A stretch of 64,000 bases of DNA from Acidimicrobiia bacterium (GTDB lineage Bacteria > Actinomycetota > Acidimicrobiia > Acidimicrobiales > AC-14): the NCBI GenBank assembly GCA_023264995.1, contig JAHFUR010000018.1, forward strand, positions 1-64,000, given 5' to 3'. The notes under the pieces were generated by a model that was not told where the DNA came from, ran no database searches, and saw only the letters and a list, made by a program, of their open reading frames with translations. Positions 27,376 through 62,812 of this stretch are shown piece by piece. How positions within the stretch are numbered: the first letter of the stretch is position 1; each line of letters begins with the position of its first letter. The translations under genes were made by a program, and so were the position numbers.

Positions 27376-27878
27376 AAGGTAAAAGAGTAGGTCAGCGGGT
27401 GTGCGGCGGCCTTCTGGGCGGGTTTGGCGAGGGCCGTCGGAGGCCGATCAAGGCCCAGAGGACACGAAAAGGACACGCGCTGGAGAGCTGCGTCGTCTCG
27501 AAGCGCGCCAAAGCGGGGTACACGGATGGCCTGATCGACGGCTTCAGCAGTGAAACGAGACACCCGCGATCCGTGTACGGTCCTCCGTGCGCGGCCATCC
27601 GAACGCAACTGGTGGCGGCGACAGGCGTCATTGGCGGTCGATCACTGTTGTGCCCAGGCGAGACGGGGTTCCGAGAGCCGAACGTCGCACCGAACGGTGG
27701 GTCGGACGAGCTTGGGAGGCTCCGGCCGGACTATGTCAAGCCCGGCGTCGGATGACGATGGGTGCCACGGCAGCCTCCGTCGGTTGCCCACGGGTGCCGG
27801 TCCCTCGGTCGTCGGCGCCCCGCTTCACCACACGTGCGGCCGTTCTCCAACCGTCATCAAGGGCATCATTGGGCGACG
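27376..27878. other. Left end of element, no gene
   Basis: The 503 bases between the tRNA and darT hold no convincing gene. The stretch contains the arm-like repeats at 27460-27477. It presumably carries the promoter for darT, but no obvious -35/-10 pair is seen. Confidence 0.6.
27460..27477 (+). repeat. Integrase arm-like direct repeats, left end
   Basis: Two GGACACG units start at 27460 and 27471, 11 bases apart, inside the element. The surrounding 20 bases (27460-27479) recur exactly at 46165-46184 near the right end in the same orientation. The 11-bp period and end-proximal position resemble arm-type sites of tyrosine integrases; binding is inferred. Confidence 0.55.
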
Positions 27879-28478
27879 ATGGATCGGAGCGAGCTCACCG
27901 AGATGCACTACATCACGGCGATCAGCAACCTCCCGTCGATGCTCCAGTTTGGCCTGCTCTCACACGAGCGTGCCTCGAAGGTTCCGCACGTGTCCGTTGC
28001 GATGGCGGCGATCCAGGGCCGTCGGGCCCCGAAGAAGGTCCCGGGTGGGCGGCCGCTGCATGAGTACGTCAACCTCTACATCAACGGCAGGAACGTGATG
28101 CTGTCGAAAGTGCTCCACGGAAGCTCGATAGATGAGGTCTGCCTGCTCCGCGTGAGTTCCGACGTCATCGATCTCCCACAGGTTGTCATCGCCGATCAGA
28201 ACGCCGCCAGCGACTACGTTCGGTTCGCACATGCTTCGGTTGGGCTCGCCCTCGTCCACCGCGACACGGTCTTCGCTCAGTACTGGACACATCCAGGTGA
28301 CCAGATCACCGAGTGGCGTCACAGGTCCGCCATGTGCGCTGAGGTGCTCGTGCCCGACGCCGTGGCCCCGCACTACATCGTCGGAGCCTTCGTGGGCACG
28401 AGCAAGGCGGCACGGGACGTGAAGGCCGTGGCTTCGGGATTGGCCGTCACAATTGACAAGTACATGTTCTTCCAGTGA
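27879..28478 (+). CDS. DarT-like toxin (DNA ADP-ribosyltransferase, DUF4433)
   Basis: About 199 residues from the ATG at 27879 (an ATG at 27903 is possible). The N-terminus (HYITAISNLPSMLQFGLLSHERA) is the DarT signature. Arg48/Arg49 in QGRRAPKKVP match the NAD-binding arginine, and Glu155 in SAMCAEVLVP matches the catalytic glutamate. DarT enzymes ADP-ribosylate thymidine in single-stranded DNA, blocking replication, and many act in phage defence. The next gene, 18 bases downstream, encodes the macro-domain antitoxin. The catalytic residues appear intact, so the toxin is probably active. It lies near the left end of the element and may help maintain it. Confidence 0.85.
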   Translation: MDRSELTEMHYITAISNLPSMLQFGLLSHERASKVPHVSVAMAAIQGRRAPKKVPGGRPLHEYVNLYINGRNVMLSKVLHGSSIDEVCLLRVSSDVIDLPQVVIADQNAASDYVRFAHASVGLALVHRDTVFAQYWTHPGDQITEWRHRSAMCAEVLVPDAVAPHYIVGAFVGTSKAARDVKAVASGLAVTIDKYMFFQ

Positions 28479-28496
28479 GAGGAGGTGAGTAGACCG

Positions 28497-29624
28497 ATGA
28501 TCACGGTCGTCAAGGGCGACCTCTTCAGGTCCAAGGCGCAGACTCTGGTCAACACCGTCAACTGCGTCGGCGTGATGGGCAAGGGGATCGCCCTTGGGTT
28601 CAAGAAGCGATTCCCCGACATGTTCGCCGATTACGTCCAGCGTTGCGACGCGGGCGCCGTGAAGCTCGGTGAGCCTTACATCTACCGCTCGCTGCTCCCT
28701 CCGTGGGTTCTGAACTTTCCGACCAAGGACCACTGGCGGTCAGTGGCGCGGCTGTCGGACATCACGAGCGGGTTGGACCACGTAGCGGCGCACTACAAGG
28801 ACTGGGGCATCGAATCGCTAGCCGTACCACCGCTCGGCTGCGGTGAAGGCCAGCTCGATTGGCGTGTTGTCGGCCCGACGCTCTATCGCCGACTCGCCGA
28901 GCTGGACGTCGATGTCGAGCTCTACGCCCCGCATGATGCGCCGGAGGCTGAGATGGACCCGATGTTCTTGAGCACGGGTGGCCAGTTGCCCGCCGGTGAC
29001 GCACCGGTGCGCCTTCCGGTTGGTGTCCTGGCGCTCGCTACGATTCTCCGGCTTGTCGAACGCGAGCCGTATCACTGGCCAGTGGGGCGCACGACCTTCC
29101 AGAAGCTCGCCTACTTCGCTAGTCAGGCTGGCATCCCGACAGGTTTGGAGTACCAGCGGGGCAGCTACGGGCCGTTTGCCGAAGACTTGAAGCGCCTCGA
29201 AACGAAGCTGGTGAACAACGGCTTGATTGCCGAGTCCCGTCTGGGGCGCATGTTCGAGGTCCGAACAGGTCCGACGTACCGAGACGCGGTCGAGCGCTAC
29301 AGGACCGAGCTTGAGGAGTGGCGTCCTGCGATCGAGCGGGTCGCTGACCTATTCCTTCGGACCGACACTCGCCGGGCCGAGGTTTTGGCTTCAGCGCACC
29401 TCGCCGCCACGGAACTCTCGGAGCGCAGCCGCCACAAGGGCACACTGCGACCGACTGAGCGCGACGTGGTCGAGGAGGTGCTCCGTTGGAAGCTCAGGCG
29501 CCGGCCGCCACTGGAGGCCGACGAGGTTGCTTCAGCCGTCCGGGGTCTCGGACTTCTGAGCTGGATCGACGTCGACCCCAGCGAGGATCTCTTGCCGGAT
29601 GCTGATCTGGAGTTGGTCGGGTAG
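28497..29624 (+). CDS. DarG-like antitoxin (macrodomain ADP-ribosyl hydrolase)
   Basis: A 375-residue protein starting at the ATG at 28497, preceded by a GGAGGTGAG ribosome site 7 bases upstream. The N-terminal macrodomain (about 1-150) has VNTVNCVGVMGKGIALGFKKRFP and VPPLGCGEGQLDW, the ADP-ribose-binding elements of DarG. It removes ADP-ribose from thymidine and neutralises DarT. The C-terminal half (about 170-375) is the DarG-specific region, with PVGRTTFQKLAYFA and QRGSYGPFAEDLKRL, which blocks the toxin directly. Co-transcription with darT is expected, the usual toxin-then-antitoxin order. An in-frame GTG at 28485 is an alternative start. Confidence 0.87.
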   Translation: MITVVKGDLFRSKAQTLVNTVNCVGVMGKGIALGFKKRFPDMFADYVQRCDAGAVKLGEPYIYRSLLPPWVLNFPTKDHWRSVARLSDITSGLDHVAAHYKDWGIESLAVPPLGCGEGQLDWRVVGPTLYRRLAELDVDVELYAPHDAPEAEMDPMFLSTGGQLPAGDAPVRLPVGVLALATILRLVEREPYHWPVGRTTFQKLAYFASQAGIPTGLEYQRGSYGPFAEDLKRLETKLVNNGLIAESRLGRMFEVRTGPTYRDAVERYRTELEEWRPAIERVADLFLRTDTRRAEVLASAHLAATELSERSRHKGTLRPTERDVVEEVLRWKLRRRPPLEADEVASAVRGLGLLSWIDVDPSEDLLPDADLELVG

Positions 29625-30057
29625 CGGCACAGTCCCCACAACCCCACGCAGGGACCACAAAACACCCGCGTCTGTTCCCGCGTCGCCAGCAGCGAGAGGT
29701 GAAGGGCTCGAACTCGACGTGGTCGAGCGTGGCATCGGCACATCGAGCGCCACCAACGACGTGGTCAACTTGACGATGTAGCCCGTACTAACGATCCGGT
29801 AGTCGCTGCGTCGGGGATACCCGGGTGGGCGCTCGGCGATGGCCTCTGGGTCCCAAGAGCTTCGACGCGGATCCCGGCCATGGTGACGACCCTGGCGAGT
29901 CGAAACGCACCAGGTCAGGCCTGCACCCCTGCCCGTCCGCCGAGCAGTAGCGACCGGAAGGAAAGACACAAGGGCATCTCCGATGCTGCATGACGCCGGA
30001 ATCGGTGCTGCAGCTTCGAAAGACTGTCACTCTCGCGGTGCGCCAGCACCCGTACCT
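29625..30057. other. Gap before relaxase gene, no gene seen
   Basis: The 433 bases contain only short frames with poor codon bias. A small palindrome (GTCAACTTGAC at 29763-29773) and a purine-rich GAGGAGGACGAGGAGG at the very end (30062-30077, actually just inside the proposed start) are the only visible signals. It may hold the relaxase promoter. Confidence 0.5.
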
Positions 30058-33000
30058 ATGAGAGGAGGACGAGGAGGAGTCCCGATTCTCAGGGTGCACA
30101 CGCTCGACAGCTCGCCGAAGGCCATCCGCTACTTCGACGACGTGGCCCGCCGTGACGGTGGCGTCGAGGACTACTTCAGCGGCCGCGGCGAGCGGCCCGG
30201 ACGGTGGATGGGCGCCGGCCTGGAGCACGTCGGCCTCCGCCCCGGCGCCGAGGTCGACGTCGACGCCGTCCACCGGGTCATCTTCGCTGGCGAGCACCCG
30301 GTCAGCGGCGAGCCACTGGGCCAGCGGATGCGTAAGGACGGCATCGCCGGCTTCGGCATGACCTTCTCGGCGCCGAAATCGGTGAGCCTCCTGTGGGCGC
30401 TGGCGTCGCCAGAGGTGGCCGGCGACATCGAGGCCGCCGAGGCCGCTGCCGTCCAGGCCGGCCTGACCTACGTCGAGCGCCACGCCAGCTACGCCCGGCG
30501 TGGACGCAACGGCATCGAGCAGGTCGACGGCGGCGGCTTCATCGCCAGCGCCTACTTCCACCGCACGAGCCGGGAATGCGACCCCCAGCTGCACACCCAC
30601 GTGCTCGTCGCCAACCGGACGCTCTGCGAGGACGGGCGGTGGCGGACCCTCGACAGCCGCCGGCTCATGTGGCGTACCGAGACGCTGAAGGCGGCCGGCG
30701 CCGTCTACCAGCTCGCCCTCCGGGCCGAGCTGTCCCGCTCGCTCGGCGTGGCCTGGGAGCCGGTCAACGAGCACGGCCAGGCCGACATCGCCGGCGTCCC
30801 CCGGTCGCTGATCGAGGACTTCTCCAAGCGCTCGGCGCAGGTGCGGACGGCCGCGGCCGAGATGGTCGTCGAACGGGCCGGCGACGATCCCGCCCGCCTC
30901 GGCCGTGCTCCGTCGCAATGGGAGCTGCAGAAGGCGGCCTACGACACCCGCCGGCACAAGGTCGGCGTCGATTCCGATCGCATCCACGACCTGTGGAGGG
31001 CAGAGGCGGCCGGCCTTGGTTGGGACGCCACGCGGCTGGAGCGGGCGACGCTCCACAGGACGCGGCAACAGAAGCGGGCCGAACTCGCCGAGCCCGAGCT
31101 CACCCGACGCGTCCTCGTCGACCTGACGCTGCGCGAGGCGGCGTTCCGGGCCGGCCACGCCGCCCTCGCCGTGGCCCGCCACGTCGAGGTCGACTCGGCG
31201 GCGCAGGCAGTCGAGGTCGTCGATGCGAAGACCGCCGCCGTGCTCGCCAGTTCGCAGGTCGTCCAGCTGGCCGGTCCCGAGCGCAGCCGGGCCGGGTTCC
31301 CGAAGCGGGCTTCCGACGGACGGAGCACCGTCACCCGCGCCGGCGACCGGTCCTACAGCGTCGATGCCGTGCTCGCCCAGGAGATCCGGGTCCTCGAACG
31401 GGCCGAGGCCGGCCGCACCGCGGGCGTCGCCGTCGTGCCGGCCGACGCCCTGGTTCGGGCCATCGCCGCCCATGACGAGGCGTTCTCCCATCGTCGCCTC
31501 AGCGACGACCAGCGCCGGGCGGTGGCGACGTTCACCGCCGACGGCCAGCGACTGAGCATCCTGATCGGCCCCGCCGGCACCGGGAAGTCGGTGACCCTCG
31601 GCGTGGCCCGGGCCGCGTGGGAGGCGGCGGGCTACTGGGTGCGGGGCTACGCCCCGTTCGGCGCCGCCGCGGCATCTCTCCAGCAGTCGGCTCACATGGA
31701 GAGCGAGGTCGTGGCCAAGTTGCTGTTCGAGCAGCGTCGCCTGGACCAGCTGTCGCCGCAGGACCGCGACCGCTGGGCGCTGACCGGTAGGGACGTGGTC
31801 GTGGTCGACGAGGCCGCCACCCTGGGCACGGCCGACCTGGACCAGCTGTTGGCGGCCGTGGAGGCGGCGGGAGCGAAGCTGGTCCTCGCCGGCGACCACC
31901 GCCAGCTGGCGCCGGTCGTGCGCGGTGGCCTGTTCTCCGAGCTGCACGGGCGCCTCGGCGGGGCCGAGCTGACCGAGGCGCACCGCTTCGAGCAGGAATG
32001 GGAACGGGACGCGGCGATGGCCATCCGTCGCCAGGACGTCCGGGGCCTCAACGGCTACGAAGCGCACGACCGCATCCGCCACGGCGGTCGGCAGGCGATG
32101 CTCGAAGCGGTCTACGAGCATTGGGCCGACGGGTACCTGAACGGGCACGACTCCTTGATGGTGGCCCGCACGAACGAGGTGGTCGACGAGCTCAACCAGC
32201 GGGCCCAGCGGCTGCTCGTCGAGCTGGGGCGGGTCGAGGTCGGCGGTGTCGCCATCGCCGGCGGGGCGGTGGCCGGCGTCGGCGACGTCATCGTCACCCG
32301 TCATCCCGACCGGCGGATCCGGGTGTCGGGGGCATCGGGGCACGTCCGCAACGGCGCCCGCTGGCGGGTGGTGGGCATCGGCCCCGGCGACCTCCTGGTG
32401 GAGGAGCTCGGCCCCTCACCCAACGGGCGCCCGAGCCGAGCGCGCATCCCCATCCGGTACGCCGCCAACCACGTGCAGCTCGGCTACGCCGCCACCGGCC
32501 ATTCGAGCCAGGGTCGGACGGTGGACCGGGTCGGCGTGGTGGTCGAGGGCGGCGAGGACGCCAACTGGCTTTATTCCGCCGTCACCCGCGGCCGTGAGGG
32601 GACGATGCTGTTCGTCGCCACCGCGGCGACGGAACTGGCGGCCGAGTACGGCAAGGAGCCGCCGTCGGCGCGCCAGGTCCTGGAGGCGGTCGTGTTGCGC
32701 GACGGCGAGCCGCAGACCGCCGTCGCCGAGCTCGAGGCCGGGTTGGCTCGCAGCGAGGCGGTGCAGCATCTTGAGGTCCTCGCCACCGCCGAGCGACCGA
32801 CCGGCTCCCTCGCCCGCGAACGACAGGCGCTCAAGCACGAGCTGTTGCGGGCGCCCTCCGAGCGGGACATCAGGGTGGCGGCCGTAGCGGTGGCCCAAGC
32901 GACGAAGTCCGTGGCCGGCGCCGGAGACCGGCTCGAACTGGCCCGGCGACGGCTCCATGAGGTCGAGTCCCGTCGTCTCTGGCGCCGGTCCGGTGAGGAG

Positions 33001-33471
33001 CTGCGCGTCACCCGGCGGTCCGTGACCGATGCCATGAAGGATGTGGCATCGGCGGAGCGCGTCCTCGCCGACGGGCGGGAGAAGTTGGTGACGATGAAGC
33101 TCGACGCCGTCGCCGGCACGGTTGTGCGGGACCGGCTTGAACTGATCGACGGCGCCCTCGACCTGCAGGTCGAGCGCGCCGTCGTTCGGTCGCCCGGGTA
33201 TCTCGTCGCCGCGCTTGGGCGTCGACCCTTCGACGGAACCGTCGCCCGCCGTATTTGGGACAAGGACGCCACCCGGCTTGAGACCTATCGCCATTTCGAT
33301 CTCGGCGTAGGGCCGGACGACGGCGCACTGGCCGCCTCGGGAATGGGTGCGGCGATCGGCATCCGGCCGCGTGACGTCGTTGGCCGGATGTCCTGGGACT
33401 ACGCCGTCCAGGGGCCAACCCCGGCACGGGGTCGTGTGCTCGAACGGGAACCGCTCGGGATCGACCTCTGA
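30058..33471 (+). CDS. MobF-family conjugative relaxase with helicase domain (TrwC/TraA-like)
   Basis: About 1137 residues. The N-terminal TrwC relaxase domain (to about 290) has candidate nucleophile tyrosines in AIRYFDDVARRDGG and EDYFSG and the metal-binding histidines His179 and His181 in PQLHTHVLVAN. A UvrD/RecD2-like helicase follows, with Walker A GPAGTGKSVT (about 505), VVVVDEAATLG (about 580) and AGDHRQLAP (about 612), and VQLGYAATGHSSQGRT near 805 as motif V/VI-like. It nicks its origin of transfer and unwinds one strand for export. The start is uncertain: ATG 30058 lacks a ribosome site, and a GTG at 30094 sits behind a GAGGAGGAG run. Confidence 0.9.
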   Translation: MRGGRGGVPILRVHTLDSSPKAIRYFDDVARRDGGVEDYFSGRGERPGRWMGAGLEHVGLRPGAEVDVDAVHRVIFAGEHPVSGEPLGQRMRKDGIAGFGMTFSAPKSVSLLWALASPEVAGDIEAAEAAAVQAGLTYVERHASYARRGRNGIEQVDGGGFIASAYFHRTSRECDPQLHTHVLVANRTLCEDGRWRTLDSRRLMWRTETLKAAGAVYQLALRAELSRSLGVAWEPVNEHGQADIAGVPRSLIEDFSKRSAQVRTAAAEMVVERAGDDPARLGRAPSQWELQKAAYDTRRHKVGVDSDRIHDLWRAEAAGLGWDATRLERATLHRTRQQKRAELAEPELTRRVLVDLTLREAAFRAGHAALAVARHVEVDSAAQAVEVVDAKTAAVLASSQVVQLAGPERSRAGFPKRASDGRSTVTRAGDRSYSVDAVLAQEIRVLERAEAGRTAGVAVVPADALVRAIAAHDEAFSHRRLSDDQRRAVATFTADGQRLSILIGPAGTGKSVTLGVARAAWEAAGYWVRGYAPFGAAAASLQQSAHMESEVVAKLLFEQRRLDQLSPQDRDRWALTGRDVVVVDEAATLGTADLDQLLAAVEAAGAKLVLAGDHRQLAPVVRGGLFSELHGRLGGAELTEAHRFEQEWERDAAMAIRRQDVRGLNGYEAHDRIRHGGRQAMLEAVYEHWADGYLNGHDSLMVARTNEVVDELNQRAQRLLVELGRVEVGGVAIAGGAVAGVGDVIVTRHPDRRIRVSGASGHVRNGARWRVVGIGPGDLLVEELGPSPNGRPSRARIPIRYAANHVQLGYAATGHSSQGRTVDRVGVVVEGGEDANWLYSAVTRGREGTMLFVATAATELAAEYGKEPPSARQVLEAVVLRDGEPQTAVAELEAGLARSEAVQHLEVLATAERPTGSLARERQALKHELLRAPSERDIRVAAVAVAQATKSVAGAGDRLELARRRLHEVESRRLWRRSGEELRVTRRSVTDAMKDVASAERVLADGREKLVTMKLDAVAGTVVRDRLELIDGALDLQVERAVVRSPGYLVAALGRRPFDGTVARRIWDKDATRLETYRHFDLGVGPDDGALAASGMGAAIGIRPRDVVGRMSWDYAVQGPTPARGRVLEREPLGIDL

Positions 33472-33634
33472 CCGTCGCCACGGACCGTGACCTGCGCGAT
33501 CGGCAACGTCCGCTGCATGTTGCATGGCCGCGACGCGCGGTCATGCAACACCCGCAGCATGCTGCACGCAAAGAATCTTGAGATGCAGCGCCCTTGGCAA
33601 CAACCGTGGCAACAACGGGGCGCACACTCCGGCA
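33472..33634. other. Candidate origin-of-transfer region with hairpin and repeats
   Basis: This gap after the relaxase gene has a 15-bp inverted repeat (33518-33532 and 33536-33550, one G-T pair, 3-base loop), outer arm bases CGCTGC/GCAGC around it, and a direct repeat TGGCAACAAC at 33595-33604 and 33607-33616. Such a layout fits an oriT next to a MobF gene or an operator; neither is proven. A terminator is less likely because no T-run follows. Confidence 0.5.
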
Positions 33635-34372
33635 ATGCCTACCTTGCCCCGGCTGTTCCGCCTGCTGGAGGACGACTGGTCTCTTGTCGGAGGAAGCGCC
33701 GATGCGTCCGCCGCCGCGGCCCGCTGGACGGCGAGCCATCCCGTCCTGAGGGGCTTCGATAGTCCTGCGGCGGTGGTCGACAGCTGCCACCGTCGTGAGG
33801 GGACGACGCCGACCCTGGTGGCCGCCGTGCTGGCCGAGGCCGGCCGCGATCCGTGGGCGGCGAGGACCGTCCTACACATCGTCCTGCCCGGGATCGGCGC
33901 GGTGGCTCGCCGGGCGTCGTGCTACGTCGGAGGGCAGCGCCCGGTGTGGCAGAGCAGCGACGAACTCCACCAGGACGTCGTCCTCATCGCCCTCGATCGG
34001 ATCCACGCCCTCGCCGGAACGGCGCCCGCCTTTCCTTGTCGTGCCATCGTCGATGGGACCTGGCAGCGGGTACGGCACCACGCCGCCTCGGTTCGTCAGG
34101 CGCTGACGACTCGGGCTGACATCGAGGCCGGCGATGACGCCGTCGCCCCGGCCGAGCGCAGCGGGTTGGAGGAGCTCGGCCTGGTGGTCATCGAGGCCGT
34201 CAACGCCGGGGCCCTCGGGACCCTCGACGCCGGGCTTGTGTACTCGTGCCACGTCGGCGGCTACGGCGTCGCCGAGCTGGCGCCGGCCACCGGACGCACG
34301 GCGCGCTCGCTGTGGCGTCGCCGGCGACGAGCCGAGCAGCTCCTGGTGGCGAGGGGGCGGGCCGATGACTGA
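33635..34372 (+). CDS. Element-encoded protein with sigma-factor-like C-terminal helix-turn-helix
   Basis: About 245 residues from the ATG at 33635. Residues 30-150 are helical (VLRGFDSPAAVVDSCHRRE, TLVAAVLAEAGRDPWAARTVLHIVLPGIGAVARRA), similar to sigma-like regulators carried on actinobacterial integrative elements. The C-terminal ~70 residues (LGLVVIEAVNAGALGTLDAGLVY... GYGVAELAPATGRTARSLWRRRRRAEQLLV) look like a sigma region-4-type helix-turn-helix with a basic recognition end. It overlaps the excisionase gene by 8 bases, so it probably controls or is co-expressed with excision. It has no recognisable sigma region 2, so it may be a regulator rather than a true sigma factor. Confidence 0.6.
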   Translation: MPTLPRLFRLLEDDWSLVGGSADASAAAARWTASHPVLRGFDSPAAVVDSCHRREGTTPTLVAAVLAEAGRDPWAARTVLHIVLPGIGAVARRASCYVGGQRPVWQSSDELHQDVVLIALDRIHALAGTAPAFPCRAIVDGTWQRVRHHAASVRQALTTRADIEAGDDAVAPAERSGLEELGLVVIEAVNAGALGTLDAGLVYSCHVGGYGVAELAPATGRTARSLWRRRRRAEQLLVARGRADD

Positions 34373-34583
34373 ACGCGAGGTTCCGCTGACCTTGTCGGAG
34401 GCGGCGGCCTACCTGAACGTCACGGAGCGGTACGTGCGCCGGCTCGTCGCCGAGAGGCGAGTCGCGTTCCACAAGGTCGGGCGCCTGCTGCGGTTTCGCG
34501 CCTCGGACCTCGACGACCTGTTCGAGGCCGGCCGAGTCGAGGTGCCGCCGGACCATCCGTTGCTGCAGCGGCGCCGAGCATGA
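34365..34583 (+). CDS. Excisionase-type helix-turn-helix protein
   Basis: The 72-residue protein starts ATGACTGA overlapping the stop of the previous gene. LTLSEAAAYLNVTERYVRRLVAERRVAFHKVGRLLRF is the winged helix-turn-helix of MerR-like excisionases (residues 6-45), followed by a short acidic tail. Excisionases bend DNA at attachment sites and direct integrase to excise. It lies 46 bases upstream of the integrase gene, the usual pairing in actinobacterial elements. Confidence 0.85.
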   Translation: MTEREVPLTLSEAAAYLNVTERYVRRLVAERRVAFHKVGRLLRFRASDLDDLFEAGRVEVPPDHPLLQRRRA

Positions 34584-34629
34584 AAGCATATGAAGCGGAC
34601 TCGTTAACAATCGAAAGGGGCAGGCAGCG

Positions 34630-35787
34630 GTGGGATCGATCGTGGCGCTCCAAGGTGGCCAGTACAAGGCGAGGTACCGGGATCATCTCGGCCGATCGCG
34701 GAGCAAGACGTTCCGGTTGAAGAAGGACGCCACCGACTTCCTCAAGACTGTCGGCTCCGACATCGTCCGCGGCGCCTACGTCGACCCCCGCCTCGGCCGC
34801 ATCACCTTCGCCGAGTGGTCGCAGCACTGGCTGGACACGAAGGTGAACCTCCGGCCTGGGTCCCTCGCCCGCTACCGGCGGGTCCTCAGGTTGTCGCTCG
34901 TGCCGGCGTTCGGCTCGATGCGCCTCGCAAGCATCGGCCCGCTCGACGTTCGGAAGTGGCTCGCCGAACTGGCGAGCGCCCAACCGTCTTCGGAGGTCCG
35001 CCGGAGCTACGTGATGCTTCGGATGGTGATGAAGGCCGCCGTCGAGAACGAGCTGATCGTCAAGACGCCGTGCGTGGCCGAGCTGCCGCGGGCCACGCAG
35101 GCGGAGATGCGGTTCCTCACCGTCGCCGAGGTCGACGAGGCGGCGGAGGCGATCAACCCACACTCGAAGGTGCTCGTGTACGTGCTGGCCTACTGCGGGC
35201 TGCGCTGGGGCGAGGCCGTCGGGTTGAAGCGCAAGTACGTCGACACCAGCCGGCGGACGATCCGCGTCGAGGAGCAGCTGACCGAGGTCGACCACCAATT
35301 CTACTTCGCCCAGCCCCTCAAGACCGCCGCTGCCCGGCGCACAGTGCGGATGCCGGCGTTCGTGGCCACGCTGCTGGAGGAGCACTTCGCCTACGTCGAG
35401 GCCCTCCGCCGGGACCTCGGGCTTCCGCCGCTCGGCAGGGACGACCTCATTTTCACGAACACGAAGTGCCGCCCGTGGCATCGGGCCAGCTTCCGCCTGA
35501 ACCACTGGGTACGGGCGACGAAGGCGTCGGGCCTGGCCGGACTCCGGGTCCACGACCTCCGCCACACCGCAGTCGCGTTCGCCATCAACCTGAGCAACGC
35601 TCACCCCAAGGCCGTCCAGATCCGATTCGGCCACTCCTCGATCCAGCAGACCTACGACCGCTACGGTCACCTCTTCCCGCAGATGGATGAGGCCATCGCC
35701 GACGACCTCGACCAGGCATATCGGGCTCGTCGGAATGACGCGCCCAGCGGACAGCCGCGCATCCCGACACTCGCCTCGTCGCGCTGA
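34630..35787 (+). CDS. Site-specific tyrosine integrase
   Basis: The 385-residue recombinase starts at a GTG. An N-terminal arm-binding domain (residues ~1-60, YKARYRDHLGRSRSKTFRLKKDA) is followed by a SAM-like core-binding domain (~65-160). The catalytic domain has Arg192 in YCGLRWGEA, His308 and Arg311 in HDLRHT, His335 and the nucleophile Tyr345 in TYDRYGHLF. All catalytic residues are present, so it should be active. It would recombine the tRNA-Leu core. The arm-binding domain is expected to contact the 11-bp-period repeats near the element ends. Its C-terminus is intact and not fused to other domains. Confidence 0.94.
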   Translation: MGSIVALQGGQYKARYRDHLGRSRSKTFRLKKDATDFLKTVGSDIVRGAYVDPRLGRITFAEWSQHWLDTKVNLRPGSLARYRRVLRLSLVPAFGSMRLASIGPLDVRKWLAELASAQPSSEVRRSYVMLRMVMKAAVENELIVKTPCVAELPRATQAEMRFLTVAEVDEAAEAINPHSKVLVYVLAYCGLRWGEAVGLKRKYVDTSRRTIRVEEQLTEVDHQFYFAQPLKTAAARRTVRMPAFVATLLEEHFAYVEALRRDLGLPPLGRDDLIFTNTKCRPWHRASFRLNHWVRATKASGLAGLRVHDLRHTAVAFAINLSNAHPKAVQIRFGHSSIQQTYDRYGHLFPQMDEAIADDLDQAYRARRNDAPSGQPRIPTLASSR

Positions 35788-35842
35788 CTGGAGCCGCGGC
35801 CACGCACCCAGGCGATGCGCTGCGGCGCGTCTGCCCTCCCGA

Positions 35843-38767: not shown

Positions 38768-38786
38768 CCCAATCTAAGGAGCCTAT

Positions 38787-41054: not shown

Positions 41055-41428
41055 GTCCTCGAACGCCGCTACGGGAAACCAGCGTCACAGCTGGTGCAAT
41101 GCCAGTCGTTGCGGCTCTCACACCACAGGTAGGTCTTGCCCCGCCAGTCAACGCACTGGCCGTGCGGGGTGTCTTCGAGCTCGCCGCTTGCTCCCTGCGT
41201 CGGGCTTCAGTGTCCGTTCATCATCGTGCCGAACGGCGAGCACAGCCGCCGGAGTGCCGTCCTGCCGGTTCCCGCAATGACGGCGCGGCGTGCTGTCCTG
41301 GCGCAACCGAACGCTCAGGAGTAAATGGCCGGCACGCCGACCACGTAAGGCGCACCAACTCATCAGGTACGGACGTGCGGCGGTGGGCTGCCGCCTTGCC
41401 GCTGGGCGCGCGGACGCGACCCGGTGGG
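41055..41428. other. Gap with a possible gene fragment
   Basis: A minus-strand stretch ending near 41080 encodes about 45 residues including VDWRGKTYLWCESRNDWHC without a start. Otherwise no gene is visible. Confidence 0.4.
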
Positions 41429-41632
41429 CTAGTAGGCGCTGTCTTCGTCCTGGTCATCTTCATCAGCGAAGAACTCGGCTTCCATACCGTCGATGGCAGC
41501 GGCCACCGTCGACATGTCGCTTGAACTGAGCGACAGATACTTCTCGGTGTACTCCAGCTCGCTCATCGTGTCGTCCCATCTCCGGTCGATGAGCTCCTCT
41601 ACCAGCTCCGGGTTGTTTCGCCGTCTACCCAT
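41429..41632 (-). CDS. Small acidic orphan protein
   Basis: The 67-residue protein starts with an ATG behind a GAGG ribosome site. The N-terminal half is basic to neutral (GRRRNNPELVEELIDRRWDDTM), the C-terminal half is strongly acidic (EFFADEDDQDEDSAY). It looks helical and could be a small antitoxin or regulator, but nothing allows assignment. It lies on the same strand as the next two genes to the right, with ~140 bases between. Confidence 0.5.
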   Translation of the reverse strand: MGRRRNNPELVEELIDRRWDDTMSELEYTEKYLSLSSSDMSTVAAAIDGMEAEFFADEDDQDEDSAY

Positions 41633-41775
41633 CCTCGTGCACCCTCAATCGTTCCGGTCTCTGTTCCCGTGATGCGTCCCGACACGTGACGCTATCCTCA
41701 TCGCGGACGCCCGCGATGTCGTACGCCGGCAGCGCGTGACTCTCGTTCGCAGGAACCATCAACCGCGCTCCATCC

Positions 41776-42042
41776 TCACTTGCTGTTGGCGTACTGCTTG
41801 AGCGCTCGAAGCGCGGACATCATCATCGGATTGCCCTTGTCGACGCCTTCAGCCGCCGCCTTTGCAGCCAGCGACTTGTAGACCCGCGCCGTTCCCTCGC
41901 TCTTGCCCTCCTTGATCAGGAAGGTCATGAAGCCTCGCAGCGACGCGAGTGTCTTGGCGTCCAGCTGCGACTGATGAGCACCCCTCACTCCCTCCCCAAC
42001 CGCTGCGAGGACCTTGTCAAGGTTGGGGGAGAGCTTCGACAT
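41776..42042 (-). CDS. Small protein resembling a recombinase core-binding domain
   Basis: From the ATG at 42042 the product has 88 residues (a TTG at 42078 would add 12). The segment LDAKTLASLRGFMTFLIKEGKSEGTARVYKSLAAKAAAEG resembles the SAM-like core-binding domain of tyrosine recombinases (xFxxxLxxxGxSxxTxxxY), but there is no catalytic domain. It may be a relic, a DNA-binding accessory protein, or an unrelated helical protein. It is followed by ~140 bases and then the acidic orphan gene. Confidence 0.5.
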   Translation of the reverse strand: MSKLSPNLDKVLAAVGEGVRGAHQSQLDAKTLASLRGFMTFLIKEGKSEGTARVYKSLAAKAAAEGVDKGNPMMMSALRALKQYANSK

Positions 42043-42606
42043 GTAATCAATGTTACTCAGGTGATAATCACTTTGCAAGGAGATTTTAAGCTACCGCCGG
42101 AAGTGGCGCAGGTCGCTCTCCGGCGAGACCGACGGGCGCCGTAGCGGTGCGGCGGGTTCGAACGCCCGCGTGCCAGCTCGCCGGGCTGGCGCGGGAGACA
42201 TTCTCGAACTCGAGATGAGCTGGCGTGCCATCTCGGCGGCCGATCGCATTGGCTCGACGACGACTCATCGAGACTGGCCTTGCGTCCGACGATCCAAACG
42301 CCCAAAACACGCAACGAGTCGCACCGAACGACGGCTCGGCGTGTGCGTCGCTCGATACCACGAGTACACAGAAGCGCGGGCTGAGGGTGGGTCGACGTCA
42401 TCAGGTGCCGCCCGTTCCGGCGATCGGCGGCACTCCACCGACAGCACCAGCTGCGGTCATGGGACGTATGGGCAGCGCTCATGTCCGGCGACACAACGCG
42501 ATGATGGCAGGTTGCGAATGCCGGACTGGCGGGACCTTTCACTTGCCCAGGATCCGGTGCCTGTCCGGAGTAGGCCAATGAGAATCTCCCTTGCTCAATG
42601 ATGGAG
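42043..42606. other. Gap between small gene and large orphan gene, no gene seen
   Basis: The 564 bases include a T-arm-like sequence near 42150-42168 (GCGGGTTCGAAC then GCCCGC) but no complete tRNA fold. No coding frame is convincing. Confidence 0.45.
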
Positions 42607-45096
42607 CTACCGCTTGCGATCCAACGGCAATCGATCGACGGATCGGGTCAAGGGACGAAGTCCAGACGTTTCGATCCTTTGATCCCGCTCGGCATCTCGC
42701 ACCTGAGCCTCGTTCTCAAAAATTACTGCGATCGGTTGTCTCGGGTCGTTTGGGTCTATAATGAAGCAAACAGCGACGGCTGCATTGGCTTGATATTGCT
42801 TATCACGCAAGTACGAACGAAAGCGAGCCCTCTCCCAATCCTCGGATGAATCCGGATCGAATGTCGCCCAGACCAGTAGCGCACTATCAGGCCCACCCAG
42901 CCCGACAAGCATTGTATAGGAATGGGACTGGCCGTCTTTCTTGGTTTGTCGCGCTATCCTCCGAGGTGTACGAGCGATGCGGTCTTGAAGGGCCGCCGAA
43001 CCCGCGAGAAGAGTTGCGCCAGTGGCGAGCCACCCAGCCTCTCCACGCTTCTGCAGGTGATCAACAAGCTCCTGCACAACTGGGTTCGCATTGTGAGACG
43101 GCTTGGGAGCCGGAGCCTGACGAAGACCGAGCTGATGGAAATACCAGGCATCGAGACGATCTGTGCGGCTCGTCAGCATCTCAGGATGCTGAGCCTTGAA
43201 ACGCCGTAGCTCTGCCACGGACGGTCCTCCCAGGGCGGGCATTTCCGCTCGGACTTCCTCGGGGTTGCGCTCGACGAAGAGCCCGGTGGCAAAAAACTCT
43301 AAGAAGAAATCGAGTTCATCGACTGCATGATAGAGCATCGTGACCGCAGGCTCTGTACGACGCCTAAGGTAGAGTAAGAACTCGGCTGGACGGTCTACAA
43401 GGTCACGGATGATTTCAAGGTCGTGAATAGAAACCGTCCAGGGAACGTCCTCTGGCGCAAGCAGTCCAGCTTGGATGAGGCTAACTGTCGCGGCGGCAAT
43501 TGCTGAAAGATCTTCGAGCGTGAGGGCGATCACGTGAACCTCGCGAATGAATGAAAGGTCTAGCCAAGCTCGGTCTCGGAGCACCAGCCCCTTATCCAGC
43601 TTGATCCGGTCTCGAAGCCGGTTCCCTTGGGCCGCTCCTTCTGTCACAAGCTTGCGCAGGTCCCCGTGAAGTCGCACCCTGTTGCCGGCGCGAGATTCAG
43701 GTCCTAGGGCACCGCTCTTCGCCTCTAAGACAATGGCAACATCGTCGAGCAACAATAGGCCATCGGCCTCAACCAACTTCGTATAGTCCGAAGGGAGGAC
43801 CTCTGGTGAAGGGGCATTGTTGTTCGGTACGAAGTATTCAATTGATACGCGCACCGCTGCACCGGGAAGTAAGGACGACAAGAGTGAGAGTCCAGTGCTC
43901 TCAAGGAATTGTCCTCGGTGCTTCGCGTACCGCTCCCATGACGCGGTCGGTTTAAGCTCCTCCTCGACTCGTTCACGCACTGCCGGAAGAAGCAACCCAT
44001 CGTGCGTGGGCATCGCAGTGCCTTGACCATCACGCAGTACTGGCCGAGTACGGAATGGAGATCGACCGTTAACAAACTTGAGCGCAGCTTGAACGGGATC
44101 ACCAGGAGTGAGGTCGTAGGATAGGAGTGCCACGGCGGACTCGACGACCACTTTAGGCAGTCCAGTACGGGTCTCGATGGCATGAACATCGATGATTGAC
44201 GCGTCAGCGGGATTATCCCATGTGGCGTCCCAAGACTGACGGGCTCGCTCGCGGGTCTCGAGTGGAACCTCTGGCATCGGCCCTGGGTCTCCGACCGTTC
44301 GCCCTCCGGCTGCACGCCACTCCTCGAAAGCGTCGCGAGTGACCTGAGCGAACTGACGCAGACTCAGCATCCGCTCATCTAGGCGACCGGTGTGCAGGCT
44401 CATTATCGCCTCGATGACTCTTCGTACCTCCGCGACGGTACAACCGATCGTGGCGCGGCAGTCAGTCTCAATGGAGGGCTCGTCGAACAAACCTGAGAGG
44501 GTCGCCTCAAGCATGTGAGGATAAGTCAGATTGCGGACAAATACCTCGCGCAATACACCACTCAACGCTATCTGCGCATCGGCGGTACCAGCTGCTAGCG
44601 CGTCCACCACCAAAAGAGTGGACGCTGCATCGAGAGCTTCACGCGTGAGGGCCTGCAACCCCTCAATAATCCCGTCGGGTCGTCTCCTCTGGGTCCCCGA
44701 GCTGGGCGCGATTCCTTGTCGGGTGCCTCGGGCGCTCAAGACGACTGCCCCCAACTCAATCGCGGCGGCGAGACCTTCGTGCTCAGTCTCTCGATACGTC
44801 TCCGGGTTAGCGGTCGCCTCGGCGAGCTTCAAGCTCTGAACAACGTCAAAAACATCGTAAGGCGCCGCTACATCACATATGCGCTGGACCGCGGCCGCAA
44901 ACTCCCTACGAGCACTCTCCATTGCGGATGCAAAATCCCCGGCCGCGTTCAAGTGTCTCAGCAGCCGGTCATGTCCTTCGACAATCAATCGCAACGGTCT
45001 CGCTAGGGTGTCAAGGTTCTCGCTGCTGACAGGGACCGCTCGATTCACGGAGCGCCTTCGCTTCTCCGCACGCTTCTTCTGGGACTTCGAACTCAC
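42607..45096 (-). CDS. 829-residue orphan protein with PD-(D/E)XK-like nuclease motif
   Basis: Start is a GTG at 45096 giving SSKSQKKRAEKRRRSVN, a very basic N-terminus, with the gene continuing on the minus strand. About 400 residues of helical sequence precede a likely nuclease core. Asp445 lies in VEADGLLLLDDVAIVL and Glu458/Lys460 in EAKSG, matching D-(x)n-E-x-K of PD-(D/E)XK folds. Around it come VEEELKPTASW and HGDLRKLVTEGAAQGNRLRD. The C-terminal ~250 residues carry further conserved-looking blocks (LDAWYFHQLG, NPVVQELVDHLQKRGEAGWL, YLRDKQYQANAAVAVCFI). No helicase, methylase or ATPase motif is seen. It may be a defence or DNA-processing protein; this is inference. Confidence 0.6.
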   Translation of the reverse strand: MSSKSQKKRAEKRRRSVNRAVPVSSENLDTLARPLRLIVEGHDRLLRHLNAAGDFASAMESARREFAAAVQRICDVAAPYDVFDVVQSLKLAEATANPETYRETEHEGLAAAIELGAVVLSARGTRQGIAPSSGTQRRRPDGIIEGLQALTREALDAASTLLVVDALAAGTADAQIALSGVLREVFVRNLTYPHMLEATLSGLFDEPSIETDCRATIGCTVAEVRRVIEAIMSLHTGRLDERMLSLRQFAQVTRDAFEEWRAAGGRTVGDPGPMPEVPLETRERARQSWDATWDNPADASIIDVHAIETRTGLPKVVVESAVALLSYDLTPGDPVQAALKFVNGRSPFRTRPVLRDGQGTAMPTHDGLLLPAVRERVEEELKPTASWERYAKHRGQFLESTGLSLLSSLLPGAAVRVSIEYFVPNNNAPSPEVLPSDYTKLVEADGLLLLDDVAIVLEAKSGALGPESRAGNRVRLHGDLRKLVTEGAAQGNRLRDRIKLDKGLVLRDRAWLDLSFIREVHVIALTLEDLSAIAAATVSLIQAGLLAPEDVPWTVSIHDLEIIRDLVDRPAEFLLYLRRRTEPAVTMLYHAVDELDFFLEFFATGLFVERNPEEVRAEMPALGGPSVAELRRFKAQHPEMLTSRTDRLDAWYFHQLGLRQAPAPKPSHNANPVVQELVDHLQKRGEAGWLATGATLLAGSAALQDRIARTPRRIARQTKKDGQSHSYTMLVGLGGPDSALLVWATFDPDSSEDWERARFRSYLRDKQYQANAAVAVCFIIDPNDPRQPIAVIFENEAQVRDAERDQRIETSGLRPLTRSVDRLPLDRKR

Positions 45097-46316
45097 GTTC
45101 GGAGCGTACGTCAACCCTTTGGAGGACGTCGCACGATTTCTCGCGAGGGGTGCTGGGCTTCCCTGGGGCACTGAAGATCCTGCGCTGGCGAACCAGGCGC
45201 ATGTCCGTGGTCGCGGCCCCAAATCAGGCGGAGGTCGTCTGCAGGAAGGCGTTCTCCTGGTTGCAGACCGCTTGGCGTCCGTTGATCGCCCAGGAGGAGC
45301 GAGCGGCGGAGCCCGATTGGGTGGAGCGAGGGACAACGCGAGAAGAGAGGCTTGGCGCCTTCGGAACGCCCGCGAAAGCTCTCTAGCGAGATGCTGGGAA
45401 GGGTCGGGCAACGGCGGCGGCGCCGGTCCTGCGAGTCGGCACCTGTAGGCCACAGCTGCGAAGCACTGGAACGCCCCACAACAGGTGCCCCATATCCTCG
45501 CCGAATCCTGGCCACCGGGATAGCCCGTATGTGCCGCTATCTCCAGCGCGTCCGAGAGAGAGCGCTCCGGCCTGCGGGTCTGCGCTGAGGACATGTCGTC
45601 GACGAACCAAGGTCGGAGGTCGACAGGCGCGCAAAGGCGGCAAGGAAAGGAACGGCAGCCGGCGGTGCGTCGAAAACGCGCTTGAGAGAACGCGTCCTCC
45701 ACGCAGCCGAAACCCCTCGTCGGATACATCGATGACGGTCCTCGACGGGCTCGAGATAAGTGCCGTACCGGGCGTAGGCCGAGATACGGCTCGGGGTGGC
45801 GTCTCCGCATGGGTGTTCGGCCCGGAAGTCGCCCATAACCGCCGGCCAGAGTGGCGACGGACCCCCGCGCAACGTGCCGTTGTCGCACGGGGGTGTCACC
45901 CAGGCGAAGGAGCGCATAACTGCGGGGTAGTTGAGCGCCGTCTGGGCGATTGGCGCGCGGACGGCTCCTTGGTCGGGACGGGCCGTTCGGCAGGCCAGTC
46001 GAAGTAGCCGGGATGGGTCGCAGAGGGGGCCGCACGGGCCGAGCCGGCAGGCCGGCGTTGGTCGTCGCGGGCGGCCACCCGCCGGGAGGCGCAGCGCTCG
46101 ACGTGATGCCGCCGCGCAGCCGTCCAAAGACACCCGTGCAGAAACCCTCCCTGAGGACCTTCCAGGACACGAAAAGGACACGCGGCCACGAAAAGGACAC
46201 GCGTTTGTGGCCTGTTACGGCGACTCTCGGGCAATTGTTGTACACGCACACACCCCCTGTGACCTGCTCTTTTCTGGAATTCTGGACGTCAGCGCAGGTC
46301 CGCCGATTGTCGCCTG
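45097..46316. other. Right end of element, 1.2 kb without a convincing gene
   Basis: Frames on both strands are overlapping and lack a consistent codon bias. The segment contains the arm-like repeats at 46165-46201 and ends at the right att copy. Confidence 0.5.
46165..46201 (+). repeat. Integrase arm-like repeats, right end
   Basis: GGACACG-type units start at 46165, 46176, 46184 (variant GGCCACG) and 46195, so two pairs with an 11-bp step. The first pair repeats 27460-27479 exactly. They lie about 115 bases inside the right attachment repeat. Confidence 0.55.
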
Positions 46317-46375
46317 GCAGGATTCAGGTTCCTGTGTCCGAAAGGACGTGGGGGTTCAAGTCCCCCCTCGCCCAC
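46317..46375 (+). repeat. Right attachment-site repeat
   Basis: A 59-bp perfect copy of the tRNA-Leu 3' part (27317-27375). The bases upstream do not form the tRNA 5' half, so this is an att copy and not a second tRNA gene. Confidence 0.95.
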
Positions 46376-46707
46376 CCCCTTTGACCTGCGGTTTTGTGTT
46401 GTGGAGGGTTCCGCACCCGGTCGTCGTACCCGCCAATTGCAACCCAGTTGCAACCCTTCGCATAGCCGGACGCGGCGGTACCGGGCGTCACGAGCCGACA
46501 TCGGACGATCCACCGAGCGCCGCGAACATCCTGGGCGGCCGAATCTCGGTGGCCAGGCGTGTCTCGATGGCCAGCGCCGTTCCGTCCAGCAAGCGCGGGG
46601 CCGCCCCTGCGGACTAGGTCGGGGTGCATTTACAGCAGATACCGGCAAAGTGGCATCGATGGCCCTCAGGGCATGTCAGCCAGGGCGTATGCGATTCTCT
46701 CGCAGCA
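46376..46707. other. Gap with a second arm-like repeat pair
   Basis: TTGCAACCC occurs at 46437-46445 and 46448-46456, again with an 11-bp step, 62 bases after the right att copy. No gene is visible in this gap. Confidence 0.5.
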
Positions 46708-48393
46708 CTAGCCGGGCCCGTAGCGAACTCCCGGGCCTCCGCGCGCGTCGCCGATCTTCGAGACAAGCCCGCGGGAACGCAGGTCGGCGAGGAGGTTGCG
46801 GGCGCGGTAGACGTCGATGTCGAACATCCTCTGTACCGTGCGGTTCGTGACGTAGCCGTACTCGCGAATGTGATCCAGGACCTTGTCGTCGACGCCATCG
46901 AGTTGTCGACGGTGGTAGTGGAGGGCCCGCGCCAATCCGGCGACGGCCTCAGGGCGAAGGCGGTAGGTCGGGACGGGGTGGTGCGCGGTTCGCCGCGTTG
47001 GTTCGGCGACCCGCTCGTCGGACATCCGCTGCAGGATTCGTTGCGCTTCGGCCGGCGACCGCTGGATGACCCCGGCCAGGTGGAGCGCGTCGATGGTCCG
47101 CCGCGTCCGGAGGGCGGACAGAGCCAGGAGGACGTCGACGTCGCGTCCGAGCGCGTCGGGGAGGTCGGCCACGTACCGCACGAACGCCTTGTTCCCGGTG
47201 CCGCCCTCGAGGGCGGCCTGGACCAGGAGATCCTCGGATCGAAAGGCGGGGGGCTCCTTGCCGCTGCGAAGCATCTCTCGATACGCCCTATCGACACCCT
47301 GGCCCGTCCGCTCGGCGAGCTGCAGGAGCGCGACCGTCTCGGTGAGCAGCCGGTTCCGCGGCGTCGACGGGTAGGTGAGGATGTTCTGGGGTGTGACGCC
47401 AGCGACGAACCCGCCGGGGCTGGAGATCGTCAGGCGATCGGCGGTGTGCTCGATGTCGACCGTGCCATGAGTGTCGTAGGAGCGGTGGATCAACGCGTTG
47501 ACGACCAGCTCCCGAACGGCGTCGATGGGGTAGTCGCTGAGTGAGAGCTGCACTCCTCCGGGGAGGCCCAGCGGCTCGATCTGGGTGCGCCGTTCGACGG
47601 CCTCGATGAGCAACTCAATGGCGGCGAGCATGGGCTCACGGCCTCGCACCCGGTTGGTCGCCTCCGCTCCCGAGGTCGGCCGGTTCTGGTAGGAGTACCC
47701 GTACTCGGGGAGCCGGTCGGCCAGTAGCTCGGCGGGAGCAAGCAGGAGCGCGGCGGCGCGGGTGAGCCCCCCACGTGCTGTGGCCAATCTGAGGTCGGTC
47801 AGCAAGCGTCCCGTGTCGAGGGCAGCGAGCTCGTGGCGGCCGGCACGACGGAGCAACTGACGCAGTCGCTCGATCTCCAACGGTGCCAGCTCCGACGCGC
47901 GCACGGGGATCTCCTCCGCCGACCAGTCGATCAGACCGCGCGCCGACAGGACCTCCCGCTGCTGGTCGGGGGTGAAGGGAAGGCACTCGCGGCCGAGCCG
48001 GCGGGTCGCGAGCCCGGCTGCATTGGAACAGGTGCCGACGCCAGGTGGCACCGAGACGATCACCAGCCTTCGACCGTGGTCGATGCGCTCGACGACGAAG
48101 CAGGTCAAGCTCGGCCGGGTGCGGTCGAAGATGCCCTTGCGCATGACGTCCACGGTGAGCGCCGGGGGCACGTCCTGGAAGGCGTCCGGGCCGATCTGGT
48201 CGTCGACCACCCCGAGCACGATGGTGCCGCCGCGGGCGTTGGCGAAGCACACGGCAGCGTCGGCCAGGATGCGGAGCGTGTCCTTGACGTCACGGCCAAA
48301 CTGCTTGAACTCGAGCTCGTCACCTTCGAGCTCTCGGGCCCTCAGACCCATGGCGATGCTCGTGAGTGCGGCGTCGACGGAGCCTGCGACCAC
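46708..48393 (-). CDS. AlbA_2-domain ATP-binding protein (Schlafen/RecG-like N-terminal family)
   Basis: The 561-residue protein has an N-terminal AlbA_2 (Schlafen) domain (about 25-130, with DELEFKQF, AVCFANARGGTIVLGV). A GHKL ATP-binding-like domain follows (about 280-385, PIDAVRELVVNALIHRSY, LTISSPGGFVAG), and winged-helix parts near 440 and 500 (DDKVLDHIREYGYVTNRTVQRMF). Members are DNA-binding transcriptional regulators or helicase-like proteins, and several are linked to defence loci; function here is unassigned. It lies between the right att copy and a decayed third att copy, and so may be cargo of an older element. It stands alone on the minus strand. Confidence 0.82.
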   Translation of the reverse strand: MVAGSVDAALTSIAMGLRARELEGDELEFKQFGRDVKDTLRILADAAVCFANARGGTIVLGVVDDQIGPDAFQDVPPALTVDVMRKGIFDRTRPSLTCFVVERIDHGRRLVIVSVPPGVGTCSNAAGLATRRLGRECLPFTPDQQREVLSARGLIDWSAEEIPVRASELAPLEIERLRQLLRRAGRHELAALDTGRLLTDLRLATARGGLTRAAALLLAPAELLADRLPEYGYSYQNRPTSGAEATNRVRGREPMLAAIELLIEAVERRTQIEPLGLPGGVQLSLSDYPIDAVRELVVNALIHRSYDTHGTVDIEHTADRLTISSPGGFVAGVTPQNILTYPSTPRNRLLTETVALLQLAERTGQGVDRAYREMLRSGKEPPAFRSEDLLVQAALEGGTGNKAFVRYVADLPDALGRDVDVLLALSALRTRRTIDALHLAGVIQRSPAEAQRILQRMSDERVAEPTRRTAHHPVPTYRLRPEAVAGLARALHYHRRQLDGVDDKVLDHIREYGYVTNRTVQRMFDIDVYRARNLLADLRSRGLVSKIGDARGGPGVRYGPG

Positions 48394-48641
48394 GAGAACT
48401 GATCCTAACTGATTGTCCGGCAGAAGTGTCCGACTATCAGTTACCCCCCGGTTACCGCACGGCTAGTCCTCAGAGCGCTCCGACGACTCCGTGCGGCTCC
48501 CTTCGGGTCGTTCTCGTCGGCCGTGACGACGGCGTAACGGCCCGGCGGAGCGGCCCGACGGCCTCTCAGTGGCGACTGCGCCCAGGGTGCGCCGAGGGGC
48601 CGCCGAGGGGTAGACGGAGGGCGGATCTCGGGTCTGGCCGT

Positions 48642-48671
48642 GGTCAGGGCGTGGTCACGAGTTGGTCACGA
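48642..48671 (+). repeat. Three arm-like repeats left of third att copy
   Basis: GGTCAGGG (48642), GGTCACGA (48653) and GGTCACGA (48664) follow each other at exactly 11 bases and lie ~118 bases before the decayed att copy. The spacing mirrors the right end of the main element. Confidence 0.5.
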
Positions 48672-48788
48672 ACGCGGCGAAACGGGGCGGTATGCAGGGG
48701 TACTGGCCGGACGAGAGAAATCGCGAAATCCCAGGTCAGGGCACATATTCGGCACCAATCGGCACCTGACATAACTGCTCGAGGCGGA

Positions 48789-48809
48789 GTTCAAGTCCCC
48801 CTCGCCCAC
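48789..48809 (+). repeat. Third, decayed tRNA-Leu 3'-end copy
   Basis: GTTCAAGTCCCCCTCGCCCAC matches the tRNA T-arm and acceptor end with a single missing C. The 5' part of the 59-bp repeat is not conserved. The following sequence (GGTAAAcgtgctGGTCA...GCGGCGGG) resembles the bases after the intact tRNA (GGTAAAagagtaGGTCA...GCGGCGG). Confidence 0.65.
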
Positions 48810-49318
48810 CGGGTAAACGTGCTGGTCAAAGGGTACGCGGCGGGCTTGAGCGCGCGCGGGCGCGCGGGCTGCTCGGGGCTCCGTGGACACAAATTGGACA
48901 GGACGTTTGGACACGAGGCCGGGCATGGACGCGCGCCGGGACACCGAGGTGTGCACGGACGACGTCCAGCGGTAGGTGCGGTCCGTGAACCATCGCGATG
49001 GCCGACTAGATGTCTCGCTGGGGGGTAGTGGCTTCGCCAGCTGGCAGCCGGCGAATGCGCTCAGCAGCCGTGTCGACCCGCCAGGCCGGGGTCGGGAGAT
49101 GGGGCTTCCAGTCTTCGAGCCGGTCCCATCAGGCTGGCGGGGATGGGCCCGCGCCCCACCCGTTGGGCCAGCGGACATCGACGTCAACTTGGTCGGCGCG
49201 AAGTGTCGTACCCGATTACGACAGACATTCGACCCGTTTGACTCGATGCTTGGCCGGGACCCATGGGGGGCGAGCCGCGGACGGGTTGCTGTGCGCGGAC
49301 GAAAGGGACGGAACTGAG

Positions 49319-55764: not shown

Positions 55765-55774
55765 AAGGGGAACG

Positions 55775-62800: not shown

Positions 62801-62812
62801 CCTGCCGCGCAA

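Follow-up and report, generated by a model that had tools for sequence, protein, structure and literature searches.

At the 3′ end of a tRNA-Leu(CAG) gene in an Acidimicrobiia bacterium (assembly GCA_023264995.1), we identified what appears to be an accretion array of integrated units brought in by integrases with differing arm-binding domains. The window, that is, the whole stretch of 64,000 bp that we analyzed, comprises bases 1–64000 of the 82,122-bp contig JAHFUR010000018.1 (C32 in our numbering); counts given for the whole contig use all 82,122 bp. From the tRNA gene (27291–27375, + strand; ARAGORN and Rfam) rightward, the array consists of a 19.0-kb element A (27376–46375, + strand), a block B (46376–48809) and a region C of variable DNA (48810–64000). 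Short direct repeats stepped by 11 bp flank the junctions and are best read as arm-type sites to which the integrases would bind. In the mechanism that we propose, each integrase would bind, on either side of the core of the phage-type attachment site (attP), paired direct repeats spaced by one helical turn (11 bp), so that matching repeats at the two ends are the signature of an element. Tyrosine integrases of different specificities would each have used the same tRNA tail as the site at which to recombine an element, with the newest unit adjoining the tRNA. We assign a probability of about 0.85 to this explanation as a whole, which jointly covers the arm-type reading of the repeats, an intact A, a fused B, an old third junction and region C.

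Repeats stepped by 11 bp beside the attachment sites

The first-pass annotation of this DNA had described two 59-bp copies of the attachment site (att) and a third copy near 48789–48809, and all three were present. Copy 1 lies within the tRNA gene and runs from the anticodon stem to the 3′ end (27317–27375, + strand), and copy 2 (46317–46375, + strand) is identical to it over the 59 bp. Copy 3 (48786/48789–48809, + strand) is a short form that extends from the T-arm to the 3′ end of the tRNA with one C deleted; it is the sole further match to the tRNA 3′ end in the contig, and no fourth copy was found right of 48810 up to the contig end. Three direct repeats of the tRNA 3′ end bound successive units, as in an accretion array.

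The repeats that had been listed beside these sites, and called arm-like, were all recovered at their positions. The contig holds 12 exact repeats of at least 7 nt at lag 11, and half of them are at the att flanks (starting at 27459, 46164, 46437, 48590, 48639 and 48652), with the same repeat, AGGACACG, at both 27459 and 46164. Such a repeat was present in four of the five element-side 170-bp flanks versus 2.0% of random windows (P=8e-7), so these repeats are not as common elsewhere in this DNA; with a threshold of at least 6 nt, all five flanks hold one (P=1.5e-6). Among lags of 7 to 30, none other than 11 showed a comparable enrichment at the att flanks. The pairs at the left ends start 84 (A), 62 (B) and 75 bp (C) after att.

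The same spacing emerged from a survey of integrase loci of the same order (Acidimicrobiales), picked by integrase similarity alone and independently of the window. We retained loci with a tRNA 3′ end no more than 400 bp away on the integrase side, dropped near-duplicates and scored the 150 bp after the tRNA in the 45 loci left, using the upstream side as the control. A direct repeat of at least 6 nt at a lag of exactly 11 followed the tRNA in 43/45 loci, and the counts were 39/45 at 7 nt and 31/45 at 8 nt. The upstream controls yielded 4/45, 2/45 and 1/45 at 6, 7 and 8 nt, other lags were represented in 0–10 of the 45 loci, and shuffling gave a mean of 0.5 at 7 nt. The pairs started at a median of 61 bp past the tRNA (range, 44–96). 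Given that the loci display at least 25 distinct motifs at ten tRNA isotypes with one lag, the spacing is conserved and the sequence is not. Apart from these counts, we noted in contig C78 of genome G000 an integrase 5.6 kb from a tRNA-Arg that bears the lag-11 pair TTCGCGTGGTT.

We also examined 18–40 kb of the element side for 12 survey loci, nine of which had a clear right attachment site (attR), with 42–47 bp of the tRNA tail repeated. In 9/9 elements the same motif recurred, again as a lag-11 pair, 113–168 bp upstream of attR; the end motifs of one element (L151) differ by one base. An element at the same tRNA-Leu in genome G003 also has matching ends (TTGCTAACGGA at both). Direct repeats of one motif outside the core and on both of its sides, which characterize arm-type sites, were found in A as well as in the nine other elements. 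In a two-element tRNA-Gly array of genome G096, the first element carries CGTGCCACA at both ends and the second GCGTGACCCTA at both, and the chromosome past the last att has no lag-11 pair. Because the motif changes at the junction between the two elements, it works as a barcode. Further, motif similarity tracked the N-terminal identity of the integrases (rho 0.36; partial correlation given the catalytic domain, 0.31; 0/500 permutations as high), a modest correlation whose direction agrees with recognition of the repeats by the N-terminal domain.

Att-flank enrichment, the survey and the matched ends are all consistent with repeats that behave as integrase arm-type sites, as first suggested. 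The proposal that different integrases had used the same tRNA is likewise supported, the arm motifs differing between junctions. We consider it likely that, across this order, tRNA-targeting tyrosine integrases use tandem arm pairs that are spaced by exactly 11 bp and share one motif between the two ends of the element, and that actinobacteria more widely probably do so. A computational “arm barcode” would then assign each att junction to an integrase specificity and expose fused remnants like B.

An additional feature of these sites is an (A)AAAGTGCAGGTCAGAGG-like motif within 40 bp of the tRNA end, observed in the window (27376–27410, 46376–46395 and 46242–46275) and in survey loci. Its GGTCA part was present at 33/45 integrase loci versus 1/45 upstream controls, and inverted copies of the motif occur at the right end of A and the left end of B. 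It is possibly a conserved core-flank or terminator element.

Inserted or variable DNA at the tRNA: element A, the third junction and region C

Leftward of the tRNA, the chromosome is conserved both across the genus (88%) and within the family. On the right, the conserved chromosome resumes at C32:72160–72189 in more than 20 relatives and, within the genus, from 65273; tblastx between relatives was noisy and could be used only for the backbone at 72160. Here the gap between the tRNA and the backbone is 44.8 kb; in relatives it ranges from 1.1 kb (G037) and 3.1 kb (G016) through 10.5 kb (G023) and 12.4 kb (G007) to about 16 kb (G032). The short gaps in relatives indicate that the hot-spot DNA between 27376 and about 65273 has been inserted or is variable, with the site unoccupied or differently occupied in other genomes.

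The best explanation for element A is a complete mobilizable-type element whose mobility is predicted from its gene content and ends. Its left arm-type pair, AGGACACGAAA AGGACACGCG at lag 11 (27459–27479, + strand), includes GGACACG copies at 27460 and 27471, and the right arm-type sites (46164–46203, + strand) carry GGACACG at 46165, 46176 and 46195. With GGACACGAAAAGGACACGCG at both ends, A reads as one matched, intact unit. The gene for DarT, an ADP-ribosyltransferase of single-stranded DNA (27762–28478, + strand; Pfam DarT 1.3e-33, PADLOC DarT 5e-35), adjoins the gene for the DarG macrodomain antitoxin (28485–29624, + strand; Pfam Macro 2e-16, PADLOC DarG 2e-88), which identifies a DarTG toxin-antitoxin/defence system. 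To their right are the genes for a TrwC/MobF relaxase-helicase (29983–33471, + strand; Pfam TrwC 6e-79), relatives of which occur in many surveyed elements; a small helix-turn-helix protein read by eye from the sequence as probably excisionase-like (34366–34582, + strand); and a tyrosine integrase (34630–35787, + strand; Pfam Phage_integrase 8e-16 and SAM_3) whose active-site residues are present in the alignment. We detected no FtsK/TraB or Rep domain in the Pfam-scanned open reading frames (ORFs) of A, some short ORFs being outside the scan. Thus, the term integrative mobilizable-type element suits A better than actinomycete integrative and conjugative element (AICE) does. Among the markers of integrative and conjugative elements that use a type IV secretion system, the TrwC relaxase was present, and neither VirB4 nor a type IV coupling protein was found in the scanned ORFs. 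Hence, A combines an integrase and a relaxase with no detected transfer apparatus.

Several other sequences in A deserve mention. We rejected a candidate decayed attP beside the integrase (35.8–36.1 kb), where we found a match of just 13 bp (at 36112) and no pair at lag 11. An apparent truncated gene fragment just after the integrase (35958–36236) may mark an internal rearrangement junction. In addition, a 63-nt sequence occurs three times in the right half of A with 65–79% identity (35895–35957, 39260–39322 and 40420–40482).

The third att copy had been described as decayed. It matches the tRNA 3′ end, but need not simply be a decayed 59-bp site; its short form is shared with a congener, the sister species G001. 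The left border of the copy, AGGCGGA/GTTCAAG (the slash marks the border), is common to both genomes. In two overlapping contigs, G001 has TGGTCACAAGTTGGTCACAA arms, the border AGGCGGA/GTTCAAGTCCCCCCTCGCCCAC, a complete C run and a related left end, with 77% identity to the window over 194 bp of the junction; a 17-mer spanning the border was found in no other of 298 genomes. Conservation of the whole junction in G001 indicates that the short att predates the species split, and the better conservation of the att-3 core compared with its flanks makes a short att (T-arm to 3′ end) no less likely than decay of a 59-bp site. Both repeats at this junction differ in G001 from those in the window at the same base, a concerted change that would fit selection for matching sites. 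Junction 3 would be an old junction with a short core, inherited from the ancestor of the two species, and another A-type element, C, would have its left end directly after it.

The sequence after the third copy indeed resembles that after the tRNA, as had been noticed (27363–27420 versus 48797–48854, 76% over 58 bp), and similar A-type left ends follow the tRNA in G001 and G006. An A-type left end from 48810 points to an older A-type element, or a remnant of one, on the right of att 3. The left arm repeats of C, TGGACACAAAT TGGACA ... TTTGGACACG, span 48884–48917 (+ strand). No right end was detected for C, genus synteny resuming past the window at C32:65273; nor does 48810–65273 hold any lag-11 repeat of at least 7 nt that could serve as right arms, other than an unrelated GGGGGTCG pair at 59727. 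Region C carries a metabolic and regulatory cluster (48810–64000) that encodes a phosphoketolase, an acetate kinase, a P-type cation ATPase, a universal stress protein, a LuxR protein and a GAF histidine kinase; the cluster is not at this place in the congeners G001 and G002. Farther along the contig, a truncated integrase with a 187-aa open frame lies soon after a tRNA-Arg (C32:79910–80350; L009:15910–16350) and is a remnant of another element.

Block B and alternative explanations

Block B has no integrase and its end arms are mismatched. The left arm pair is TTGCAACCCAG TTGCAACCC at lag 11 (46437–46456, + strand) and the right arm repeats are CGTGGTCAGGG CGTGGTCACGAGT TGGTCACGA (48639–48672, + strand); between them, as cargo, is the gene for a 561-aa Schlafen/AlbA_2 protein with an HATPase_c_4 domain (46708–48393, − strand). 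Taken as one intact element, B would violate the rule of matched ends, since it lacks repeats of the same motif on the two sides of the core. The first-pass annotation had viewed 46376–48788 as an older, integrase-less element. The absence of an integrase, an age greater than that of A and a non-chromosomal origin all held up; the single element is doubtful. More likely, B consists of the fused leftovers of two elements, a history that we infer from the repeats: an L5-like TTGCAACC-type element would have supplied the left end and a TGGTCAC-type element the right end of a block that carries the AlbA_2 gene. A search for TTGCAACC pairs in 128 genomes returned three matches, every one beside a tRNA or an att copy; the other two are in G049, next to a tRNA-Ala, and in G112, where the pair follows an att copy of tRNA-Leu(CAG). 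Outside the window, GGACACGNNNNGGACACGCG occurs beside an integrase in G054 and G096, inside an apparent gene in G046 (C67) and, in two cases, without an integrase in the locus. G112, from another family, has its own array at tRNA-Leu(CAG) (L190/L191; G112:C87:54012–64991), in which a TTTGCTAAC-type element with TrwC precedes a TTTGCAACC-type left end.

The alternative that survives best, though we find it doubtful, is that B is a single old element that lost its integrase and whose end motifs were unlike from the start or became so by drift. As a single element might, B lies between att copies 2 and 3 with one gene as its cargo, and L151 demonstrates that the arms of a real element can differ by one base. 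However, TTGCAACCC and TGGTCACGA are unrelated on either strand, whereas the ends match in 9/9 other elements, in A and in the element of G003. The right end of B has an orthologue in G001 that adjoins different cargo without AlbA_2, and both B repeats are internally perfect, unlike what drift would produce.

Some observations weigh against parts of the fused-remnant and matched-end interpretation. The right arms of B and the left arms of C are one base apart (TGGTCAC versus TGGACAC) and, with one-base end differences known from L151, B could be parsed otherwise. The integrase of A lies well inside the element, with 7.25 kb separating it from the left att and 10.5 kb from the right one, whereas most surveyed integrases are less than 300 bp from att; its nearest relatives (41–44% identity) are at tRNA-Val, and no closer ones were confirmed in the genome contigs. 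For these reasons we infer, rather than observe, that this integrase made A, which may have been inserted by an integrase since lost. Lag 11 was missing at 2/45 survey loci, and the survey loci share phylogenetic kinship.

It is less probable still that the 11-bp repeats are sites for an excisionase (Xis), also known as a recombination directionality factor (RDF), or for a host factor instead of integrase arm sites. RDF sites too are helically phased direct repeats, as in phage 186, in which the Apl repeats are reported to lie one DNA turn apart (PMC7498355). Yet the pairs described here have the same motif on both sides of the core, as do the putative arm sites of phages CrimD and Pixie and of cluster J phages (PMC3203893, PMC3706429), and motif similarity follows the N-terminal identity of the integrases, a comparison made for integrases and not for RDF genes. 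Consistent with arm-type sites, phages of the L5 group carry GAGTTGCA pairs at lag 11 beside int, as seen in relatives of L5 rather than in L5 itself.

That 46376–48810 is ancestral chromosome and A alone is mobile is highly improbable. The AlbA_2 gene does have a relative of 78% identity in another family, but this relative is directly after a tRNA-Arg (L076:9837–11736; G023:C44) and not at tRNA-Leu. The gene is absent from both congeners, the genus and family hold only distant homologues, and the tRNA-backbone gaps of 1.1 to 3.1 kb in relatives are without it. We rejected the ancestral reading on these grounds, no relative having been found in which this segment is ancestral. The tRNA-Arg position of the relative suggests that this gene travels as cargo between tRNA sites. 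A chance origin of the 11-bp repeats, or one as a by-product of codon usage or base composition, is next to negligible and was rejected from the contig enrichment and the survey shuffles (0.5 loci expected at 7 nt versus 39 seen): short repeats at lags divisible by 3 are common in this DNA, which is rich in coding sequence, but 11 is no codon multiple and only six further cases of at least 7 nt occur in 82 kb.

Known arrays and the reading of integrase specificity

Accretion arrays and arm-site pairs are already known; what is new is the survey-level 11-bp rule and the parsing of an array by it. In Streptomyces, AICEs and defective elements accrete at a tRNA-Arg, and the stacked elements have different integrases, identical flanking direct repeats and the conserved remnant of an ancient element at the same site (PMC9513070), much as here. 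Those AICEs are TraB-type, whereas A has a TrwC relaxase and no FtsK/TraB in the scanned ORFs, and arm sites are not used to parse the array in the part of that study that we draw on. Similarly, the tandem AICEs Sav3708/Sav3728 and Fean5518/Fean5534 place two elements at one tRNA with integrases of different or related subfamilies; the excerpted account offers no arm-site analysis and concerns another lineage and gene content (PMC3218068). SXT and R391, as cited in the same study, share one attachment site and form chromosomal tandem arrays (PMC3218068), whereas the junctions described here have different integrases and arm motifs, and remnants rather than intact copies.

The closest parallels to the repeats are in mycobacteriophages. 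Putative arm-type sites have been reported for CrimD, Pixie, L5, Giles and cluster J phages (PMC3203893, PMC3706429); as at this locus, repeat pairs of about 10–11 bp flank the attP core, and cluster J also uses tRNA-Leu. The unit of phage Superchunk, AGTTGCAACCC, is the left unit of B. The phage attP sites were described singly, whereas here the 11-bp spacing and the matching of ends extend over a survey and a chromosomal array. In the literature consulted, we found no survey-level statement of an exact 11-bp spacing of the pairs together with their matching between the two ends.

Arm-type sites are normally found system by system through footprinting. A fixed 11-bp spacing and matched ends make them readable from sequence, and with the approximately 40 motif-integrase pairs assembled here, the code by which the arm-binding domains of integrases recognize their sites becomes open to testing. 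The rule also helps decide which ends pair up in stacked elements, and marks element ends even after the loss of the integrase or the att core. At this locus, integrases of three or more arm specificities appear to have used one tRNA-Leu, over a period that exceeds the age of the species.

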